DNA of 64,000 nucleotides from Mycteria americana. Its lineage: Eukaryota > Chordata > Aves > Ciconiiformes > Ciconiidae. The stretch spans positions 49,153,501-49,217,500 of the forward strand of contig NC_134370.1 in NCBI RefSeq assembly GCF_035582795.1, given 5' to 3'. Below are positions 22,428 through 56,800 of this stretch, in pieces. The notes under the pieces are model-generated. The model was not told the DNA's origin. It saw only the letters and a list, made by a program, of their open reading frames with translations, and did no database searches. Within the stretch, counting starts at the first letter, position 1; each line of letters opens with the position of its first letter. The translations under genes were made by a program, and so were the position numbers.

Positions 22428-22806
22428 CATCCCATCCCGACCCCATCCCAACCCCATCCCACCCCGGCCCCATCCTATCTTAGCCCCATCTTACCCCAGC
22501 CCCATCCTCCCCTGGCCGCATCCTACCTTGCACAATCCCAACACCATTCCCATCCTGTCCCAGCCCCATCCCACCCTGGCTCCATCCCACTCCAGCCCCA
22601 TCCTGCCCTGGCTGCATCCTACCTTGCACAATCCCAACACCATTCCCATCCTGTCCCAGCCCCATCCCACCTGGCTCCATCCCACTCCAGCCCCATCCTG
22701 CCCTGGCTGCATCCTACCTTGGCCTCATCCCACCCCAGCCCCATCCCAGCCCCATCCCACGCTGGCCGCATCCTACCTTGGCTCCATCCCGCCCCAGCCC
22801 CTCCAG
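22428..22806 (+). repeat. C-rich minisatellite with a 93-bp tandem duplication
   Basis: The tract is built of short units like CCCATCC and CCAGCCCCATCC-TGGCTGCATCC. Within it a unit of about 93 bp, recognisable by CCTTGCACAATCCCAACACC, occurs twice (about 22520-22612 and 22612-22704) with almost no differences. This implies a recent duplication. Confidence 0.85.
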
Positions 22807-30963: not shown

Positions 30964-32876
30964 TCACACCCAGTACTGGTTGTTTTTCAAGGGGGGATTG
31001 GAAGTCCGGCAGTACTGGAGCAGCTCTGGGTCCGGCGGTGCACCGGGACCTGTGCCCTGGGGCGGGGGACCCGTGCCCTTGCTCTCCAGGGCATTGACAG
31101 TCGTTAGGGGGATGCCTTGGTTGGGGTCCATCCTCCGGAAGGTCTCCTGGTCCGGCACGGCCCCATTCTTGGCTTTGGAGGAGGGGGTGCCCTGGACGTG
31201 GTGCTTTCCCGTCTTGTTGCGCTTGTGCAGGTAGAAGAGCAGGGGCAGGATGAGGGCCAGCAGGAGGAAGATGAGGCAGATGGGGATGATGATGCTGAAC
31301 ATGTTGGCCTCGATGAAGCTGAGGAAGGTGCCCCCCTCCACAGGGCTGGGGCTGGTGGTAGCACCGGGGCCCAGCCACGTGGTGGGGGGCATGCCCAGCT
31401 CACTGGCGTTGGGGCTGGTCCGTGCTGTGCCCTGGGGCTGGGGCACCAGGGGCGAGGGTGCCAGGGGGGCCATGACCAGGGTGATGCCGTAGGCTTTCGA
31501 GGCGTTGTAGGGCTCAATGCTGTACCCCAGGGATGCCAGCGCTGGTGGCACGCCAGCAGCCACCAGCTCAAAGACAAAGCTGTCACTCTGCAGGGGCTGA
31601 TCAGTCTCCTCAGCATCCAGCACCTCCAGCCCGACCAGCCCTTGCTCCAGCTCGCTCTGGCTGAAGGTCTCAGTTGGGGTGGTGGGTTGTCCTGGATCCC
31701 TGGAGACCCTCACAAGACGGCTGCCACGGGGCGCCCTGCGGATCTTGAAGACTGGGATGCTCTTGGTGCGGTTGGCCAGCTCACTGGCGTCGAGGACGCT
31801 GGTGTCCAGGAGGGCTGTGGTGCCCCTGGGCCACACGCTGCCCGGCCGAGCCTTCACCAAGGCGCGGACGGTCACGTTCACCACCCCAGTCCTGTTGGCT
31901 GCCCATGATGTGGCAAGGAACTGGAAGTTGTCCTCAGGAGAGGTGAGGTCAGTGAAGGTGAACATCACCTCCCCGCGGTCCAGCTGCTTCTGCGAGAAGC
32001 CCCGCACCGGCTTTTGGTTGACCTGCACTTGGCCAAACCTTGGGTCCCTGGTGATCCTGTACAGGGCATTGCCTGCCCTCAGCTGTGTGGCTCCCAGGAG
32101 GTGATGGTGGGACACCAAAGCCCTGTTCAGGTCTTGGGGCACCTCCAGTGGCACCGGGCTGGCAGCGGTGCTCACTGCAGGCAGCACCTCTATCTCCAGC
32201 GAGGTCAAGGTGGGTGGGTGGTGGCCATCGGAGAGGCTCAGGGCTAAGGACTCTGGGGCATGGGTCCCAGTGGCAACAAATACCACGTGGCCTGCGTTGA
32301 CATCTGCTTGGGTGAAGCGGTTGATGGGTTCCCGTGGGTTGCGTGCATTGGCCAGGTGGCCAGCAAGAGGTCTCTGGAGGACACTGTACACCACCTCCTC
32401 TGGGGACCCCAATGGGTCTGCCACGTCCAGGTACTCCTGGGACACGGTCACCACAGAGCCTGGTGGGACCCGCAGCACTTCTTGCCGCTTCACCACCTGT
32501 GGTGGCTTGCTGCTGCTGCTGGTCACCGTTATATTGAAAGCTTCGGAGATGACCACACCTTCCTGTGGAGGACGGATGGACTGCTGCACCCGGGGCCGGA
32601 GCCAAGCCTTAAATCTGAAACTGTCATCAGAGATGCTGTCTCCACCATGGGTATATGCCAGGCGTCCCGTGGCCAGGTCTGACTGCAGGAAAAACGTCTG
32701 TGACCGCTCTAGGGACACACCAGCCACCAAGAGCTGCCCATGAGCTGGCAGCCCTGTCACCAGGAAGACAACATCATGTGCAGCCCTCTCGGGGACTGGG
32801 ATTTGGCTTAGGAGGTTGGAAGCATCCAGCACTGAGGTGTCAATCTCAGCCCGTTGGGCCCTTGCGAGCTGGAGAC
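30964..32876 (-). CDS. CSPG4: CSPG4 coding exon 10 (last)
   Basis: Acceptor TTTTCCCCCAG. It completes Gly1721 and encodes the last CSPG repeats, the membrane segment FSIIIPICLIFLLLALILPL, the basic stop-transfer HKRNKTGKHH and the C-terminus LKNNQYWV with TGA. Confidence 0.97.
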
Positions 32877-35800
32877 CTGGGGGAAAAGGGAAAACGCAAA
32901 GGTCTGTCATCCCCAGGAAGAGCCAGGATCTACTGGAAAGGAGAGTGAGATATAGCAGAAAAAGGATTGCAAAGAAATGGAGAGGGATGAGAAGGCAACT
33001 GGGACTTATTAGTTTGGTAAAATGATGGAGGAAGGAATTGCACAGAGATCCACCAAAAGGATGGATGCAATTTTAGATGTTGCTTGACATAATATCAAAG
33101 CTTGTGCTCAGGTGGCCATGGGAAATTGCTCAGTGGTGTCTTCTTCAGACAAACAAGCCCTCCTCAAGTCTGCACAATCCCCTCAAACGGGGGGATTGTG
33201 CAAACTTCAGGAGGGCTTGTTTGTCCCTTGCTTGTCCTTTCCTTCTTTACCTGCATTTCTCCATAGCTGAGTTGAGCGCTGGGGACACCTGGCCTCGAAG
33301 GAGATCAGCACGAGGAGGATGAAGGAATCTGAGATGGTCATGGGAGCAACCACACGGAAGCGGATAGCATCTTGGGCAAGCCAGAAGGGCTTCTCTGGCA
33401 TCTCATGCTGGTAGAAAATCAATCCACTGTCCACCTAAAATTAAAAAAAACCCACAATGAGCTCTGCTAAACGGCAAAATAAATACCCAGAATGGGTGAT
33501 ACCATGTAGGAGATGGGTGCATCTGTCTTATCTCTGGTGTGATGGCCACTGTAGCACCAGGGGGGACCTTGGTGACACTGTGTTAGAGCCAATGTGTGCA
33601 CCCTGAGCTCTTGTCTTGGCTGTAGGAAGGAGCAGCCAAGCCCTAATTAGGTAAGAAATGGGGATTATCACCAGCATGGTAGCCACCACTGAGAGCTCAT
33701 GGTGCCTCTCTGCCAGGATGTTTCTGTCCAGCAATTGGGGAAACTGTGGCTCAGAGGAAGGGCTGAGCTTGCTCAGCATCCTCCAAGAGTCAGACCAGGC
33801 TGCCTCCGAGGGTGAGCACAGCACAGGGGAGCTGGCAGCGTGGGCAAACCTGCGTGCTTCTGCGGGAGTGTTAAAAATAAGCCCTTCACCATGCTCTGTA
33901 AAAGCCTGGCTGTATAGGAGAAGCGTGGTAGCAAGGATCTGCTTGGAGCTGAAGCGAAAGCATCGCGCTTGGCTCTTGCCTCAGGCAGCAGCCAGGGTGG
34001 CTGGGTCTGCAGCAGGCAGGTAGCCTAAGGAAAGGGGATTATAACTCCCTGAGCCTCCCGCAGCACTAAATCCAAGGCTGGTGGCCGTGGTAAAGCCAGC
34101 ACTGGGGCGGCAGCTCTTAATCCCTCTTAGCAGCTGTTGGCAGAGCTGGGAAAGTCATGGTGTGGCTGCAGCCTTGCTCTGCCTCCTGCCAGGGAGCAGG
34201 TGCCTCTGCCCACGGTGGCAGCGGGGTCGGGCTGGGACCCCTGGGCTGCAGTGGGGGGTGATGGAGGGCTGTGCCTTGGGATCCTGGGGGGCTGGGGGAG
34301 GTGAAAACTCACCTGGGCTTGGGTGAAGTTCCTGATTTCCTCCCCCTGGGAGGTGCTCAGCCTGCCCAGGCGCGGGGCTTGCTCGATGCTGTAGTACAGA
34401 GCAGTGGAGCCGGTGGGGCTGTTGCTCACTGCCTGCAGGTTCTGGCTGGTGATGGGCTGCCGGGCACCTGGAAAACACATCCAGTACGGACTTCAACCCA
34501 TCACCTCGCCACCCACCTGCAGCTTCTGCCACGGGCATCGCTTGGCAGTGTTTGGGCAGGGGGTGGTGGAAGGGTCCAAGGGCCCTCTTTGCCATAAAGA
34601 CTGGGAGGATGGGGAATGTGACCGTACCCACCTGGGCAGACGGTGAGGCTCTGCTTCTTAGCCAGGCTGATGAGGGGCTCTCTCTGGGCCCTGACGAGGA
34701 AGAAGTGCCCAGGAGACAGGTTCTCGCCGTCCCACAGGTCGAAGGCGAAGCCCCCATCCAGGGGCCCTGCAGAAAGCACAGAGCTGGGCATTTATGGGGG
34801 GCAGCGGGGCTGCAGCCCCCCATTAACCTGGCACAGTTTGGACCAGGGTGCTGTGCGATGGGGTTAGCATTTGCCTTGGTGGCACAGTGCTCCCCTCCGG
34901 TGGTGTTCCCTCCCTCGGGCCGGGGGTGATGCCGGGGGGGTCAGGGCACCTCAGCCCTGCCCTACCTTGGTGCATGAAGAGGATGAGGCCGTTGTTTATC
35001 TGGGCCTGGGTGAACCGCCGGACCTCAGCGCCGGGTGCCGACCTCAGCACAACCTTCCCATTGGCCGGGGGCTGGATGGAGTAGGTCACCTCCTCTGCCG
35101 GGGAGTCCTCGTCCTCGGCGCTCAGGACGTGGGGGCTGATGGCAGCCGTGGTGCCTTCCCGCAGCTGGGAGATGGGGAGAGGCTGTAATGCCCCTGGGAT
35201 GCCCCCAGCACCTCTGTCCCCTTCCCTAGCCCGCTCCAGACCCTGTCCCAGCTCAGACTGCTTCACTGGGTGCCTGAGCACATCCCAGCCCAACAAGGGC
35301 CCTTTGTCCGTGTGCTGGGTGACGTCCTATTGTCTGGCTTCTTCCCAGCCCTGCATCAACCTGCACCATTGCCGTGTTTGCCAGCACGTGCCGAGCCACT
35401 GCGTCCATGCATCTGCATGGTGTGTGCAGGACAGAGGTGAGGGCTCGCCCCTCCGTGCCTCAGTTTCCCCAAGCGCTGAAAATGGAAGAAGGCACGGTGC
35501 TGGTGTGGCTTGCAGGGCTGGGGCAGAGGCTGTGCCTTTGATGTGTCTCTCCCCATTGCTCTGCAGAGAAGGGCTTTTTGTGGGGTCCCCGAGCCCTGAA
35601 CTCGCTCCCTGAGCTGCTGCTGTGTATGTGATGACCACAGCCCCGTCTCCCCCCAGCTGGGTGTTTCTCCTAGCTCGTGCTCCCGGCCAAGGCTGCAGCA
35701 AGGCCACGAGCCGACCCAGCAAACCCTCCAGGAATGACAAGTATGCAGTCGAGCTCAGGGCCACCCCGCAGCTTCCCAGGGCCACTTCCCCCAGCCAGCA

Positions 35801-38800: not shown

Positions 38801-41800
38801 GCGGGGCAGGATGGTGATGAAGAGGGTCCTGGGCTGGCTCTGCCGGTCCATCTCGGAGGCGTTGGCCAGGAGGGTGAAGCTGTCGGCCTGGGCCCGGGGG
38901 CCGTCCTGCCTGTACTGGATCTGCTGGTTCTCCACCTGAAGGGCAGGGGACGGGTGACCCTCCCGGGAGGACACGGGCCACCAGCCCCGCTGGGGAGGGG
39001 ACCTGTGCACCAGCCTGGGAGGAGGGAGGGAGCCAGGCACCTACCACTTGCTCTAGGGCATCCCTGCGGGATGGATCCAGCACAAAGACAGGGAGCGGGA
39101 TCCCCATGGGAAGCAGACCTGGAGCCCAGCGTGGGTGCTCTGCCTGCATTCCCACCCTGTATCCCCAGGTGTATTTAAACACACCTCGGGGGTTGATGTG
39201 TTCCCTGTCTGCAGGGCAAACCCGCCACCCCAAACCCCTCCATCCCAAGGGCAAATATCTTTGATGGGGAGAGGAGCCCCGCAGCCCTCCCCAGCCTCCC
39301 AGTGCCGCTGGGGGCTGGAACCCACCCCCGGCCTCTTCCCAAACCCCCTGGGAAAGCAGTGTGGTGGGCAAGCGGGCACTCTTGGCTGCTCTACCTCGCT
39401 CCAGGTGAAGCTCTGCAGCCCGCCGTCCTCAGGCCGTTCGCTGTTCAGGAGGGTGCCAAAGCGGGGGGGCTCGAGCACTTTGAACTCCACGCCGAGAGCC
39501 GTGAAGTAGGCGTTGGGGATGTTGAGGATGCCCGTGGAGAGGGTGATGGAGCCACCTCCCGGCACCGTGATGTTGCGGACGTCCAGGGGGACAGCGATCG
39601 GGAGCACAGCCAGACTCACCACCACCCCCTCCAGCGGGTCTGCACCGCTGGCCGTGATGTCCACGACAAACTGGTCACGCTCCTCCTCCGGCTTGGAGTG
39701 GAGGTAGAGGACTCTGCCGTTGTTGATGTCCTCCTGGGTGAAGGACTGGATGGGGTCCAGGCTGGGCTGCTCATTCGAGTCTCTGCCGTGCTGAAGCATT
39801 GCCAGGAAGCCAGAGGCTGGGAGGCTGCTCACCAGGTAGACTATGTCTTGGGGAGGGATCTCTTCGTGGGTCACCTGGGAGTGTGGGGGAGACAAGGCAT
39901 GAGTGGGGGGCTGGTGCCTGCAAGGCTGGGCTGCCCCACAGCCCACTGCTGTGCAATCCCCCAAGGCTTTGCTGTGGGATGAGCTACAAGAGTCACTTTC
40001 TTGCTGAGGCCATGCCTGAACGCCCCCTCTGCCCCTGGGCAAAGCCTGACATGGGCACGAGTCCTTTGCTCTGGGGCATGGGCAGGTGGGAGCAAAATGG
40101 AGTCCCACTGGTGGCTGTCCTGGTTTAGTGGCCAGCAAAGTGATGCAGGCTTGGGGAATGACTAGGGAAGGGGATACTCACCAGTAAGTACTCCTCCTTG
40201 ATCCCAGCCGCTTCCCCCTGGAAGACGTGGATCTCCTTGTGGTTGACTATGCGCAGGGGGCTGGGATGGGTGTCCAAGAACACGCTGATGGCCAGCGTGT
40301 CCTCCACCACCACCTCATTCGCTTCTACAGTGAACTGGAGCTCATCCCGGGTGTTCCTGCTCCCGTTGTGGCGGTAGGAGATCTCTCCAGCTAGCAAGTC
40401 CCTCTGGGAGAAGGCCATGACCGGCTGCTCTCCTCTCAGCACAGTCCCCCACCTCGGGGGGGTTGTTATCAGGAACCGTATCTCTTCATCTGACCTGATG
40501 TCCATGTTGGTCTCCAGGCTGAGGACAGAGGAATCAATGCTCCCTTGGCTGCCTTGGTGGATGACTAGACCGGTGTTGTTGACTATTTTGATGTAGGGGT
40601 CTGATGCCTGTACTTCCAGGAGGGCTGTGGTTTGGTGGAGGCCATCTGAGACCTGTAGCTGGATCCAGCCCCGGTCAGCCCCTGAATGGACAAAGAGGAT
40701 CTTCTTCTTCCTCAAGTCATCCTGTGTGAACCGATAGACCTGGTGGTTTCTGTCATCAACAGACACGATGCTGCCAAACAAAATGTCCTTCCTTGCCAGC
40801 ACCAGCTGCGTGTCAGAGAAGCCAGAGTCCTTGTCGGTGAAGGCGATGTCATCTGTTGTCAGCAGGTGCTGCCCATTGCGCACCACATTGAAGACCTTGT
40901 TCACCACCTGGACTGGGGTGTGGTCATTGATGGGTTGGATGGAGACCCTGAAAACACCTCTCACCTCCTCCTCATCGGGCTCAGCGCTGCCCTCGCCCTG
41001 CCTGATCGCTACGAAGGGGATGTCATCCTCCAGTGTCTCGGAGTCATCATGCTGGTACAGCAGCCGGCGGTGGAGGATGTCATCGTTGGTGAACTCTGTG
41101 ATCTCCTCTCTGGAGGCCCAGCCGTGGGATGCAGCCCAGGCCAGCCTCCCGTGTGCTGGCCCCTCAATCACTTCATAGAGGTAGTCCATGCTGTTCATGC
41201 TCTGTACAAACAAGTGGTCCTTGGAGATGACGGCTTGCCCCCCTTCCGGCACAGTCAGGAGGACGTTGGTCAGGGCTGGTGCATCAGGGTCCCCACCAAT
41301 GCTGATTGTGTAGGTATAGACAGGAGAGTGCTGCTCACCAGTGCGGACGCGAAACTGGAAGGTGTCCTCAGCTTGCTGAGAGTTCCTGATGGTCACGCTG
41401 TAGCTCAGGTGGTTTCTTTGCAGGTCATCTTGGGTAAATCCAAAGCCTTCGGTCAGCCTGTTGCCAAGCAGCTCCAGGTTTCCCTTTTTGGGAGCCTGGA
41501 TTATCACGTAGTGGAAGGGGACTGGGGCAGAGTTCGGATCTTCCAACATTGCCTCCAGCTCCTTACTGGTGATATTTCTGTGCCGCTTGTTCTTCATCTG
41601 GAGGGGGACCATGGTCCTCATCTTAATGGTGGCTCTTTTAATCCTTATGAGAAAGGTGTTGTTTTGCAAGACCTTCTGCCCCACCTGGACTTTGAATCTC
41701 AGCTTCTCCACAACATCTTCCAGCCGGTGCTCTGGGTCTGTGCTAAAATACTGGATGCGCCCTTGCTCCAGGTCTTGCTGGTGGAAGGACTCAACTTTTT

Positions 41801-44800
41801 TCCATTCCCCTCCCATGCTCCCTTGCTTCTGGACCTCACCATACCTTAGGGGCTCTGTGAGGACATATAAGATGGTGACCTGTTGTTTCACGGCGTTTGT
41901 CTCCACTGACAGGTTGGCTGTGGTAATGCGTGCAGCCCCTCCTTGGGAGATGGAGAGGCCGGTGTTGTTGTGCAGGCGGATGTCAGGGTCAATGGCAAGG
42001 ATCCTCAGGGTGGCAATGGGGCTTGGGACTGTGCCATCCCTCACCTGCAAGGTGAGCTGTAAGTTTGTCCCACTCTGGTGCACATAGACTATGTTGCCTG
42101 CTTCCAGGTCCCTGCAGGAGAACTCTTCGATGGGCACTCCAGGGTGAAAATCATACTCTACATAACCCTCCTCCATCTGCTGGCCACCATGCAGCTGGAA
42201 TTCGAGGTCATCACAGGATGTGTCATCATCTAGGACCTGCAGGATGTCTGTGGTCAGGTGTTTCCGTGTGTGCTTCAGGATTGTCATGTGGTTCCCATGG
42301 GGAAAGATCACCTGTGGGGCATCATTGATGGGGTTGATCATGATGGGCAGCAGGTACATCTGGCCCTGCCGCAAGCACTCTGGGACCCCTTGCTGGGCAG
42401 TCACTGTCACCTCCAGCATCAGCTGGTCCATGGGCCCCTCGGAGCCATCGTGGACGTATCTGACTTTCCGATTCACAATGTCCAACAAGGTGAATTTCCT
42501 TCTGCTCCTGGACCCAGGAATGTCCAGCTCCAGCTGGCCATGCCTAGGGTCGTTGGTGATGCTAAAGAGGATTTGGGACTGCCGGATGTTTGCAAGGCTC
42601 AAGTCTACTGTTGGCTGGGCGTGTTTCCACTCCAGATAGGCCGTGCCCCCTTCAGAGACAATGAGGGGGCTGACATGCAGCAGCCTGCTGATGTTGGTGA
42701 AGGCAGGTGGGAAGCTGTTGTCTGGCTGGCATGGCTCCACCACCAGGCCTGGTGCTCCTGACCAGACATCTGGAGGTGCGGAGGTGGGTGCCTCATCCTG
42801 CTCGTACACCTCGTCATAGTCCCAGTAGTGCTCCTGCTTTCCACAGCCTGATGTGATGTCCTTCGTGATCACGGCATCTTGCAGACTCCTCCTCTGCAGG
42901 TTTATCCGCAGGTCCTCCAAGCAGCCAACAAATGAGTTGTTGGTCATGGTCCACACCGAGATGAAAGCAAGATGGTGTTCCCTCAGCCTTTGCAAAGCTT
43001 TTTCATTCATACCTCCAATGAAGAGGTTTCCCTGAAGGTCCAAGTAGTTGTTGATGCCCCGGTTGGATGTGGATGAGGCATAGTAATCAATCAGGATCTC
43101 AAACTTGTGGATGTCCGTGTAGACTTTGACATAGTGCTGCTGCTCATCGCTGATGAAGACGTTGTTGTGCAGGACGATGATGCCGTTCCCCTTCTCAACA
43201 AACCCTCTCAGGCGCCCGTTGGAGATCTCCAGGTAGAAGAAGTCATTCTCCAGCCCTGCGTGGTATATGAGGGGTGCCTGGGTGATGCTTGTCGTTATCA
43301 CAAATTCGATGGTTGCTTCCTCCCTTGCATCCCATGTGGGAAATGCAATGTAGGAGTGTGGCCCCAGAAACCCGAAAGGGTCCTCGGGCTCCGCAGAGAA
43401 CTGTGTGCTGCACCCTTCCTGGACCCGGTGGAAGATCTTGGAGCTGCCGTCAGAGGACAGTGGGGAGAGGACATCCAGGCCGTTGAATGTCACTAAGTGG
43501 AGGCAACCTCTGAAGGGCGAGCTGGCCTCAGTGAGGTATGGCAGGTCAAGGCTGCCTGTCCCACCGGCATAGAGGCCATACTGGATGTCCAACTCCCGTA
43601 CGGGTCCTGTGATGTCCACGGAGCTGTTAAAGAGGCTGTCGATGGTCAGCGTCATCCTGCCATCTTCCACCAGCAGCTCCACATCATGCACCGCCAGGTT
43701 ATTGAGCTGCAGCTCTGCTGGGGACTGCAGCGTCACCTCCTCTGAGCCCAGCTGCAGCCTGGCCTGCAGGGAAGGACATGGAAAGTGCTCAGCTCAAGCA
43801 AGGTGTTATCTGCAGCACAGGAGACATCTCTCCACCTACCAGAAACAGCTGCTGAAGCATGGACTGTTCCTGGGGGCTCACAAGTGTTTTGGTCCCTCTG
43901 TTCACTACTGTTCATCCTGCCCTCTTCCTCCTCTGTGCATGTTCCTCCCTCCCCAGCTAGATGCCCCTGTGGGCATGCCTCCTCTGTCCTGCTCTCTGAA
44001 TTTCTCTCCTTTTTCACTCTTTCTCAGCAAACCCCAGTCTCAGGGCTATTTTCCCGGGGTCCTCCATCTCCCAGTCCTGCTGCCCCACTGCCGGGCTTTC
44101 CTTCTCCCCCCATGGAGGAGCCCTATCAGATGCTGGCTTCTCTTTCCCTGCTCCATCCTGCCCGCTGCCCTCCATCCCTGCAGCCTGGGCTGCTTCCAGC
44201 CCTTGCCCTGGGAACTGGCAGGGGAAATAGCAGGCTTTGCTCCCCACAAGCAGCAGCCTGGAGCCTGCCTAAGTAGAGGGTTAGCTGATGGACCCTGAGA
44301 CACACGGTCTGCATTAGGGAGACCTCCGGCCAGCTGCTTGCTTGCTCTCCTGTTTTGGTTTAGATGTGGTTGGTGGCCCAGCCCAGGCTGTAGGGGAGGC
44401 AGGATGTGTGCCTCGGTTGCTCCCTGCTCTTTTCCTCCATGGTGGATGCCAACACCACAACCACAAGAGGGAATTTTATTCTTCTGTCCCTTCCCATGCC
44501 CCAGTTGGGCTTGGCCCATGGTGGGATGGGGAAGTCTGCTGATGGAGACCTCTCCTTTCTCTGAATCATCTCTGCTCACCCTTTCTCTTCACTAACCCCT
44601 TGCACCCTGAGGGTGCTGGGCACAATGTCTGGCCATGCAATGTGCATGGGGTGCCAGTGTCTGGGTGTCTCCCTGATGCTCCCCGGCCTCACCCTAGGTA
44701 GTGGGTGAGGAGCTTCCCAGCTGGAGCCTATTTCTCTGTATTCAGCTGATTCTCCCAAGATTGTGTCCGCTCTCCTCTTAAACTTTTAACATCCCCTGGC

Positions 44801-50800: not shown

Positions 50801-53800
50801 GCTGCAGCGATGGCACCCAAGCCTGGTGGGGACCTCGGGACGTCCCACGGTCCCCCTCGTGCTGGCAGGACCCTCCTCCGCAGGCAGCGCGGGGCTGCCT
50901 CCAGGATAGGCTCAGGCACTTGGGACGGGGCTGAGCCAGCCCAGCAAACAGCCCCTGCCCTGGGAAAAGCCTCTCCCCGCTCTCCTGCTCCTGGGGTTCA
51001 GCCTCAAGATTTACGGGGTGGAGTGGCATCGGCACGGATCCATCCCTATTGCCATAGTTCCCGCCGCGGAGGAGGGCTTTTTCTCTTTATCCCCACTTCC
51101 AGGTTTTATCCTCCGCGACTCCAGCTGGCGATTGCAGCTCCCACACCCCGAGCCAGGGCTGTGCGTGCTTTTCAAACCCCGGCAATGGGAATGAGAGCTC
51201 CAGTTCTCGCCTCCCACCCTCCACCTGGCCCTCCCTCGCAGTGGGGCTCCCCGGGGCCGGCGCTTTCCAGGAGTGCCGGCCAGCGGAGATTGCTGGAAAG
51301 CAGCACCCGGGAAACCGCTAGCAAAGCCGTGGCTGATCACTCTCCTCAGGGCTGCTGACAGCCAAGCGCTTGCCATAAGTGGTCATCACCCTTGTTTCGG
51401 GTGCGGAAAGAGAGCCCCTGGGCTGGGGTGCTCTGCTTTGCCCCCATTCCGTCCCACTGGCCCCTGCCTCCCAAAGCAGATCATCCACCCCTACCTCTGG
51501 CTGCACTGCACTGCTTTGAAAACCTCCGCCTGTGTTTATTAATTCAGTTCCTCTCCCCGTTCACCTGCCAGCTGCTCTCCCGCTCGCTTTCCCCTGGCTG
51601 CTGCCTGACAGCTTTGGGGAAAAAAATGCCTTTTTGCAGCCCACGGACTCTGGGGTCAGTGGAAAACATGCCCCCTGCTAATTCTGCGCTGCCTGGGAGG
51701 GGGGCTTGCCGTGTCGTCCCATGTCCTGCCAGCCCTCGACCCCCTGCCCGACGTGTGTTCCTGCTCCTGGCTGCCTCCCCCATCCCTACGAAGCAGCATG
51801 AAGGAGCTGGAGGCCATAAAGCAGGGTCCAGGAGGCTTGGCTGGAGTTCTGGAGCTTCAGCCCTCGCTTATCCAGCGTGATTTTACGATGATTCAAGCAG
51901 CCCTAAAGCTGATGGTATTTCCTGCGCTCTCCTGCTCGGCCAGATGCAGAGCCACGGAGGGGAGGGCAAGGAGCTGATAGCTGGCACTGCCGCAGCCCCA
52001 GCCGCACGTTGGCTGCGTCCCCCTTACAAAGGTCACGGTGCTCTTAGGAAGAGCTGGGGGGATGCATCCCCAGGGCGAGCACCCCCGAAGCCTGACGCGA
52101 GTGGGAGCAGGGATGGAGAGCTTTTAATGACATGTGGCTAAACGACTCCGGAGGGACTTAAGGAATAAGCCTGAGCTGGAAGCGGTGGTTGGAGTTTTTG
52201 CCCTGGGAAGCGAAGTGGGGGGAGAAAGTGGGAGGATTTGGGGAAGCGAGAGGCTCAATGGGGCTTTTGTGCCGTCCCCTGCAGCATGACTCAGGCTCAC
52301 TCAGTCTCCTACTGCCAGGAGAAGTTGGCCTGGAAATATTGTATCAGCCCCAGAGGACGTGGTTTCCAAACCATCCCAAGTCGGGTTTTGTTCTATTTTT
52401 TGACCCTTCTCTTTCTTTTTCTTTCTCCCAAGCCGTCTCCCCCTCTCGCTGGCTGGCAGGCTTTCCAGCTCCACCCTGCACATCCTGGCCCCCGCTCCCA
52501 CAGCTTTCCCTACCCCAGCTCCGTGCCGGCCGCTTCCCACCCAGCGAGGGAAGGACTTGCAGAGCTGCTGGGGTGCATGCGGCGGCATACGAGGGGACAA
52601 TCCCAGCGGGAGCAGGGGGACCCGGGGGGAACTCTGGGCTGGAGGCTGGTTTATGGGGGAGCGGGGCACCCAGGGCGCACATCCCACCTGCACATCCCCA
52701 AATCCCATCCCTGCCTACCCGACAGAGCCGATGCCCCGTCCCGAGCCGGTCCCTAGCCCTGGCAGAGGGAAGGAGCCTTCCTAGGAGCTGGCGGGAGGAG
52801 CAGCACAGCCCGGCCAGGGGATGCTCACAGGCATCCCTGGAACGGCTGGACGTTACCGGAGAGATCCTCGCCTGCTGTCAACAAACAGCGCAGCCGCCGC
52901 TGGAGAGGGGCCCGTCTCCAGCCGCCCGGGCTCAGATGTTTCCCAGCCTTGCTTGTGTGCGTCTGCTCTTGAAGTGCCAAGATGGGGGGGTTATCGGCCA
53001 AAGTCGGGGGGGGGGGGGGAAGGACGGGCACGAGAGGAGCGCACAGCCTGGCACATGGTGGGAGATGCTGAAGCTCTGTCAGGAGCTACCTGCCGACTTT
53101 AATTTCAGCATCCAGGGGCAGGGAAGGAGCTTTTAAAATACACAGCTCAGGGTGATCTGGCCAGAGCCGTGCTGGCAGGGCAGCACCCGCAGCACCCGCA
53201 GCACCCTGTGCCCTGTGGGGCTACAGGACCACAGCCGGGATGGGCTTTCAGTGATGCCGGGTGCTGCGAGGGGCAGAGAAAAGTGTCTCCATGGACAGGG
53301 AAGGGTGTTTGCAGCGTGGAAGGGGAAAGAGAGGATATTTTTTGCTCATCTGGGGTTGACATGCTAAATTGTCTGCCTTGCAGTTCTAACTGCAAAGAAA
53401 ATGAGTATTATTTTCTTTTTTTCCCCCTTTCTAGAGCTGAAATCTCTTTTCTTCTCTTCTCTTCTCTTCTCTTCTCTTCTCTTCTCTTCTCTTCTCTTCT
53501 CTTCTCTTCTCTTCTCTTCTCTTCTCTTCTCTTCTCTTCTCTTCTCTTCTCTCTTCTCTTCTCTTCTCTTCTCTTCTCTTCTCTTCTCTTCTCTTCTCTT
53601 CTCTTCTCTTCTCCCTTCTCTTCTCTTCTCTTCTCCCTTCTCTCCTCTCCTCTCCTCTCCTCCTCTCCTCTCCTCTCCTCTCCTCTCCTCTCCTCTCCTC
53701 TCCTCTCCTCTCCTCTCCTCTCCTCTCCTCTCCTCTCCTCTCCTCTCCTCTCCTCTCCTCTCCTCTTCCCTTCTCTTCCCTCCTCTTCCCTCCTCTTCCC

Positions 53801-56800
53801 TCCTCTTCTCTTCTCTTCTCTTCTCTTCTCTTCTCTTCTCTTCTCTTCTCTTCTCTTCTCTTCTCTTCTCTTCTCTTCTCTTCTCTTCTCTTCTCTTCTC
53901 TTCTCTTCTCTTTTCTCTTCTCTTCTCTTCTCTTCTCTTCTCTTCTCTTCTCTTCTCTTCTCTTCTCTTCTCTTCTCTTCTCTTCTCTTCTCTTCTCTTC
54001 CCATGCTTTCGGAGGTCCCCCTCCCCACCCTGCCTCCTCCTCCTCACCCCTGTTATCCCCCTGGCTTTTCCATCTATGAGAAACAAGCGGCAGGGTGATG
54101 TTTATAGAGAAAATAAATGCCTGCTCTATTTCTAGTGCAGGGGGGGACATATAGCTGGCTGCGTGGGGCTGTGGGGGTGTGGAAGCGGGCACGCACATCC
54201 CCTCCCAGGGCTGCAGGGCAGGACAGGAGGCTTTTCTCAGACACATCTACCTCGGGCCAAAACTTCCCTCTCTTCTCCCCAGCTCCCAGAGGAAATGACC
54301 CTGATGGGCCCAGAAATTTCTGTGGGATGGGACACACGAAAACCTTGAAGCTCAGCTGAAGCCCATCCGGAGGCTGGGAAAGGGAACGGGAAATTCCTCC
54401 TGACCCCCCCTCGCTTTCTCCCTGTGCACTGGGGAGCGCCAGGGGTGTTTATGGCTTGATAACAGATGGGGGACATCCATTAACACACCTGGGGATGGCA
54501 CCGCAAGCATCCAGGGGCTCTGACCCCAAACCTCCTCTCCCTCGCCCGCCTTCCCCCTGCCCGCTCGCAGCAGGGAGGAAAAACAACTACCAGAAAGCCA
54601 AGATTTGGGCAAAAGAAGCAGCAGGGATTCACGGGGGCCATCCCAAGCTGACTCACAGCCCATGAAGGCTCCTTGAACAGCCAGTGAGTCATGGTGATGG
54701 ATGAATGTTACTTTTCTCTCTCCTTGGCTTGGAGGCACATGATGGGACCTGCCACCTTCAAACCATGCTGTTTGCCCCATGACTTTCTCAATTTTTGGCA
54801 GTACCCTCCCTTCCCCGGATGCTTTCTGTCTGCTACTGTCTGTCTGTCCGGCTGTCAGGCAGCCAAGAGCAGCCGTTGGGCGCAGGGCAGCTCCCAGAGG
54901 TATTGCATGGAGCACTGCACAACTGGCGTAGGCGACACACCCGGGGTGGAAAGATGGAAAATGGGAATTTATCACCCTCTTGGATCCAGGGCATGGGGCA
55001 TAAACATCTTTCACCCCACCTCGCTGCCGGTTGGCAGGAGGATGCTCGGAGGCCCTATTTGGTCTGTCCTGAGGATAAGCGACAGCTAACGAGCGACAAA
55101 CCAGGCAGCAAACCTGCATCGTCCCTATCCCGGGATTGGGAAGAGCTGCAGCAGTCCCACTCCTCTGGTTTTAAGCCCAGCTTTGCAGAATCCAGGGCTG
55201 CCCTGACTCTGGGCTCTGCTTTGCAAAGCAGCCCTCGGCTTTGCAACAGGGCACAGTGGGTTCTCTGGTTGTGGCACATTAACAAAAAGCCTCAGGTCCG
55301 TTTGCAAACTTCACAAGTAAAATGAACATGATGCAGACGCGTCCACACTTACTGCAGCAGCTCAGGGAGAAAGATCATAACACTTTTTCTTGACCTCAGT
55401 TTTTCTGTTACATTTACCCTAGAAAAACTCTCCAGGGCATCCCATCCATGTGCAGCATGGCAATGTGCAACCAAGCACTGCGCACGATGGAGATGGCTTG
55501 GGGAAGGGCTGGTTTGGGAATGAGGGGTCTCCCTTGGGCAGCCTCCTCGCTCCGTGTCTCCAAGAGGTCTGGAGATATGGGGTGGTGAAGGGGCTGGTTG
55601 CAAACCGGGCTGCGCTGCGTGCAGACCTGCCTTGTACCTGCTGGGGTGACTTGGGCATGTGGACATGGCCTGGGATGCCCAGGCAAGACCCGGGAAGTGT
55701 ACAAATTTGAGCTGGGGAGTTTCTAGGACTTTCCCGGCTGAAGGCTGGGGGTGATGCTAACGCTCAGGGAGGCTGGATTGCCAAAAAGGAGACAAGCTGG
55801 AGCCCAGCTCCTCCAGGGACCTGGAAAGGGCTGAGGGAGCAGCCCCTGGGAGCTGAGGCTGGGCTGAGCCAACGCCTGTTGCGAACAGTCTGTGCTTTGA
55901 GCTTTATTTAGGCACACAGACAGCATTAGCCTACTGCCTCTGAAGTCCTGTTACTGTCCAGCCTTCAACCTGACGTTAGTTCCTGCGGGTGAGCTTAACC
56001 CTGTCCTGCGATCTTGGAGGAATGCACTTATTAAGTATTTGCCCACAGCCTTCTGTTGCTAAATATACGAGTGAGATGAGAATATTCCTCCCTGATTCCC
56101 ACGATACCAGTTTGCATTCTCCCCCCTTTTCAGCCTTTTTCCTGTTCTTTCCCATCAGCTGGAAACTTTTCCAGCTGCTTGGAGCTATGACCTCAAAACA
56201 TGTGGCGCATTCACAAAAAAGAAAGTTTGAATAAATCGGTCGGATTTCCAAAAGTGGAGGAGAGGAATAGCCAAGGTGGCTCCCTAGAGTCGATAACCCC
56301 GGATAAGGCAGGAGGGGTCCTGGCCGGGTACCCCGGGGCAGACACCGTTCCCTGCCCAGGAGCAGGTACTCTGCATGGGGCAGCCACGGACAAGCCGGGG
56401 TCACTCTGGCCTACCCGGGACCCCCATCACCACTGCTGGGGGTCCACCCAAGACTTGGAGGGGTCGCATTTTTGGCACCCCCTTGCTGGAGGCTCGGAGT
56501 GAACGCTGCTTACAGGGATCCTACGCATCCAGTTCCTTCTTTCCCGCGCATCCCTCCTCATTACAAAGCCCGAGTGAGAAGGTTTTTGGGGAAGGGGGAG
56601 CTCAGCCTGCGGGTGACCTCACTGGGAACCGGAGGAGAGCCAGGCTGTCTAAAAACAGTTTACTAAAGCGTCACACTCAGATGTCAAGGGGACAAGTTTT
56701 ATGAGTGTTTTTTCTTTTTGATATAATCTTGTATTTGTTGATGTGCACGGTGACCCTTTCCATTTCAGGCTGGGCAGAATGCCTGGGCCCCTGAACCTGG

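Follow-up and report, generated by a model that had tools for sequence, protein, structure and literature searches.

Replication template switching is a published route to the birth of microRNA hairpins (Monttinen and Loytynoja, 2022, PMC8794818), and the microRNA examples of this origin in the relevant part of that paper are mammalian. Regarding the processing of such hairpins, passages in two reports place the optimum of the stem for the Microprocessor at approximately 35 ± 1 bp (PMC10954719, PMC7174388), and the optimal terminal loop is given in one of these as longer than 10 nt (PMC10954719). According to sections of the same literature, mismatches or wobbles in a mid-stem zone of 23-26 nt help processing, mismatches in the seed inhibit it, and a CNNC motif beyond the 16-18 zone can shift the cut (PMC7174388); one sequence motif can suffice (PMC10954719).

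In the present study, we analyzed a hairpin in an intron of the bird CSPG4 gene, located in a 64-kb stretch of genomic DNA (referred to as the window), which a first-pass annotation had called pre-miRNA-like. This description is appropriate for the shape of the element, with its stem of approximately 35 bp, very low folding energy, sense orientation, and intronic location, but as a microRNA it is no more than a candidate. We regard the hairpin as genuine and as an inverted duplication beyond chance, of a known and ordinary kind, for which no second copy was found and which probably has no selected role.

Results

The host gene was assigned to CSPG4 because its large exon matched the CSPG4 entry 7ml7 of the PDB and because Laminin_G and Cadherin_3 domains were found. 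The match (E 5.6e-219) and both Pfam domains were located in an open frame at 40128-43793 on the minus strand, the ends of which are those of the frame and not of the exon. Cadherin_3 was present in both of the CSPG4 stretches tested against Pfam. The hairpin resides in a phase 1 GT-AG intron of 374 nt (32877-33250, minus strand), which was delimited by the splice consensus. The upstream exon (33251-33434, minus strand) was recognized from its sequence and open frame, with ends inferred from the splice consensus; its donor reads CAG/GTAAAG, and the intron terminates in CCCCCAG. The intron is the one that precedes the exon whose open frame reaches a stop at 30966; the coding part of this downstream exon up to the stop codon (30967-32876, minus strand; tested as 30967-32874) is an open frame with three stretches of Cadherin_3. 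The stem begins after 25 nt of the intron, at intron nt 26, and the hairpin ends 271 nt ahead of the acceptor, in agreement with the earlier placement approximately 25 nt past the donor of a 374-bp CSPG4 intron.

In the CSPG4-sense RNA, which is read from the minus strand, arm pairing defines a 5' arm (33191-33225), a loop of 8 nt (33183-33190), and a 3' arm (33148-33182). The two 35-nt arms are complementary at 33 of the 35 positions (94%), and our recomputation returned the same coordinates, match count, and loop as the first-pass annotation. It had also claimed that one of the two differences becomes a G-U pair in the sense RNA and leaves a single true mismatch, and this was borne out: with stem positions numbered from the base, the 3' arm carries its G-G mismatch at 18 and its U-G wobble at 23, and the 35 positions comprise 33 Watson-Crick pairs, one G-U pair, and one mismatch. 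RNAfold added one further G-U pair at the base of the stem, extending it to 36 bp, and a weak C-G pair within the loop.

The folding of 33130-33245 (116 nt, minus strand), which had been suggested with the original description, revealed a very stable structure of -68.7 kcal/mol against a shuffle mean of -30.9 kcal/mol (sd 3.9, z -9.69), and none of the 200 shuffles matched this energy. The 78-nt hairpin alone was predicted by RNAfold at -65.3 kcal/mol on the minus strand and -62.8 kcal/mol on the plus strand, and its MFEI was 1.59. The basal flanks were mostly unpaired in the 116-nt RNAfold prediction; in the intron+60 fold, pairing was predicted for the 6 nt closest to the stem on its 5' side and for most of the closest 20 nt on its 3' side.

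Chance fails to account for the hairpin because of the z-score of its fold (-9.7) and because only approximately 1e-6 stems of this type are expected per genome. In a simple analytic model with a match probability of 0.26 and loops of 3-60, the expectation for a 35-bp stem with at most two mismatches was 6e-11 per window and 1.3e-6 per genome. A census for arms of at least 20 nt with at most 12% mismatches and loops of 3-60 covered 264 kb, comprising the 64-kb window and twenty pieces of 10 kb sampled from this genome, one of which contains 275 N, and its one match was the CSPG4 hairpin itself. No hairpin of this class occurred in the 200 kb of the sampled genome, but this sample is small and still permits up to approximately 20,000 genome-wide (95% bound, calculated by hand), such that it does not establish rarity in this genome. 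A looser score cut returned three weaker stems in the sampled pieces, the longest arms being 27 nt. As a separate observation, a 76-nt inverted repeat with 27-nt arms and a 22-nt loop was present in the sampled background (4651-4726 of L010); a putative likeness of the loop to the tRNA-Lys primer-binding site of retroviruses suggests that the repeat may belong to an endogenous retroviral fragment.

The 1.35-Gb assembly was searched with the 116-nt hairpin region, a 34-nt arm pattern (at most three mismatches), the loop core (at most three mismatches), and the whole 374-nt intron. The sole match in each case was the locus itself, with the qualification that these searches skip very common words and score the best candidates only, such that a family of very high abundance could have escaped them. 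The search with both arms proposed in the first-pass annotation accordingly revealed no copies beyond the CSPG4 locus. Regarding a target-site duplication, no identical 3-9-mers directly adjoin the unshifted stem ends.

Short pieces of the arms gave few matches elsewhere, which we read as chance. With 22-nt pieces and at most two mismatches, the 5' arm had two off-locus matches (none for the backward-read control) and the 3' arm had one (one for the control); the expectation under equal base frequencies is 0.33 per 22-mer, and the 5' arm is slightly above it. The best off-locus match of the 5' arm, at L007, is identical at 25 of 27 nt and then ends abruptly. Although its E value was 2.1e-6 in approximately 6 kb, the value scaled by hand to the whole genome is approximately 0.5, and, thus, we treated the match as chance and rejected this locus as an origin or target. 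L006, which shares exact pieces of 13-14 nt only, was rejected in the same capacity.

No family of Rfam 15 reached its gathering score anywhere in the 64-kb window. The best sub-threshold match at the hairpin was mir-5350 (39.2 bits against a gathering score of 90, E 1.9e-6), and the sub-threshold matches were spread over both strands and over miRNA families of several different names, which we take to reflect the shape of the hairpin. Literature text searches found neither six strings derived from the arms nor CSPG4 as a host gene of an intronic miRNA, and a query combining CSPG4, chicken, miRNA, intron, and hairpin returned nothing related, as judged by title. The main text of a zebra finch microRNA paper (PMC3585881) does not mention CSPG4. 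The Rfam result and the search with the arm strings agree with the first-pass annotation, which did not recognize the hairpin as a known microRNA. The last CSPG4 exon had no relative in the scanned genome-contig and viral-contig collections, among which there was no second bird, and the exact 29-nt arm pattern had no match in the viral contigs.

Other repeated sequences were noted during the analysis. In the window, a pentanucleotide repeat of the TCTCT type (approximately 110 copies, 92% matches) occupies positions 53443-54000, and positions 22448-22801 hold a nested minisatellite with periods of 96, 48, 32, and 16 nt, the 96-nt unit of which (92% matches, 2.7 copies) suggests a recent expansion of a higher-order unit. 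Of 391 candidates for feather keratin (PF02422), 150 gave scored matches, most of which lie in arrays, and the family was not found in any of the 14 control genomes; this points to a bird as the source of the DNA. These arrays are long and regular, with many copies of equal score spaced at approximately 5.6 kb on contig C248, 5.5 kb in a part of contig C25, and 4.3 kb on contig C2.

Discussion

We think that template switching is the likeliest origin of the CSPG4 hairpin, a mechanism that was absent from the alternatives listed in the first-pass annotation, and we assign a probability of roughly two in three to a local inverted duplication that arose by replication template switching and has since been drifting neutrally without a selected role. 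This reading is supported by the pairing of the arms beyond chance together with the lack of a second copy, of a target-site duplication, and of comparable stems in the 200 kb sampled; the finding of the hairpin, arms, loop core, and intron at one locus fits a local, one-off event and not a dispersed element. In such an event, a nascent strand at the replication fork may have folded back or jumped to the opposite template, copied approximately 35 nt, and returned. A 35-nt stretch of the intron would in this way have gained a single reverse-complement copy immediately next to it, leaving two arms around the 8-nt spacer, which would then have diverged by two substitutions. Repair-coupled fold-back synthesis or another type of inverted duplication would leave the same footprint. 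A mark of the native arm was sought as a direct repeat in the 5' flank, and the result was not significant, with 1678 of 2000 shuffles doing as well.

The intron is presumably transcribed with CSPG4, and each pre-mRNA would thus hold a near-perfect RNA hairpin of 35 bp. This hairpin probably leaves in the intron lariat and serves no selected role; occasional contact with ADAR or Drosha/Dicer is possible, and it might feed Drosha/Dicer weakly. The avian substitution rate is approximately 2e-9 per site per year. Under this rate, and provided that neutral drift set out from identical arms, the two differences among 35 positions correspond to approximately 15 My with a Poisson interval of 2-52 My, or to 1-69 My over rates of 1.5-3e-9 per site per year. 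On these assumptions, the hairpin may have an age of very roughly 2-50 million years.

We grant a minority share of the probability to a young hairpin that yields a microRNA or siRNA. A functional gene of this type, in which Drosha would cut approximately 13 nt above the base, Dicer would trim the loop, and one arm would be loaded into Argonaute to repress targets, is in our opinion unlikely, and we are slightly more doubtful of the particular version in which one template switch yielded a new lineage-restricted microRNA or hairpin-siRNA gene that matched the Microprocessor ruler in length at birth and is already processed. Our criteria for a microRNA gene treat the loop of more than 10 nt as an optimum and the motifs as aids, neither of which is required. 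The stem of 35 bp, or 36 with the basal G-U pair, lies at the Microprocessor optimum, which could hint at selection; the MFEI, the sense orientation within a host intron, the sub-threshold similarity to miRNA families (E as low as that of mir-5350), and the wobble at position 23, inside the helpful mid-stem zone, point in the same direction. However, the loop of 8 nt is below the optimum, and, with the cut placed after stem nt 13, none of four sequence motifs is in register. The basal UG position holds GG for this cut, and UG is also missing for cuts after nt 11, 12, and 14; apical UGU/GUG is absent from the loop; the lower stem is fully paired and offers no mismatch for mGHG, as read from the pairing and not by a script; and CNNC starts 19, 20, 21, and 22 nt downstream of the 3p cut for 5p cuts after nt 11, 12, 13, and 14, respectively. 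The first of these registers counts to some extent in favor of processing, with CNNC one base outside the 16-18 zone. In the 5p product, the G-G mismatch would sit at nt 5; the intron+60 fold, unlike the 116-nt fold, predicts pairing for the 6 nt beneath the stem on its 5' side; and an Rfam match at the gathering score is lacking. The likeness to a Microprocessor substrate thus appears to be mixed, with a fitting stem length, a short loop, and no motif in register.

A conserved avian RNA of greater age, either a microRNA or a structural RNA, the arms of which are kept paired by selection, would be consistent with differences at only 2 of 35 positions, but is very improbable considering that no Rfam family reached its gathering score and that the weaker matches scatter over names and strands as would be expected of a clean hairpin. 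The wobble is not a sign of selection because every transition within a stem produces a G-U pair on one strand or the other. It is just as hard to credit the splicing-control structure proposed in the first-pass annotation, which could act on CSPG4, for example, by looping out 78 nt just past the donor. The stem starts 26 nt into a short intron, where a structure of this stability could form during transcription; however, the hairpin covers neither splice site, and the predicted pairing of the donor region was approximately the same when the hairpin was deleted in silico, which leaves this proposal without positive support. The foldback transposon relic proposed in the first-pass annotation, here taken together with a MITE relic, receives the lowest probability of all. 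Its inverted-repeat architecture is as expected for such an element, but a foldback transposon is unlikely because the four genome searches, in which very common words are skipped, returned only the CSPG4 locus and no target-site duplication adjoins the stem ends.

If the hairpin generated by the presumed template switch is processed, it would represent a datable microRNA precursor that a single mutational step created in a bird. If it is unprocessed, it offers a natural control in which a near-perfect 35-bp intronic hairpin in an expressed gene is tolerated by Drosha, Dicer, and splicing.

Among known systems, canonical intronic pri-miRNAs, the substrates of Drosha/DGCR8, share with the CSPG4 hairpin a stem of approximately 35 bp, a terminal loop, and sense orientation in a host intron, whereas the CSPG4 hairpin is near-perfectly paired and has a loop of only 8 nt and no motif in the canonical register. 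Tailed mirtrons similarly place a hairpin near one splice site of a short intron; however, the ends of the CSPG4 hairpin are not splice sites, and it is not a mirtron because of the 25 nt and 271 nt that separate it from the donor and acceptor, respectively. Hairpins derived from foldback elements or MITEs have inverted repeats in common with the present case, but for the latter neither a second copy nor a target-site duplication was found. With hairpins born by template switching, such as human MIR633 (PMC8794818), the CSPG4 case shares arms of tens of bases that are nearly perfect reverse complements, a short loop, and few mismatches.
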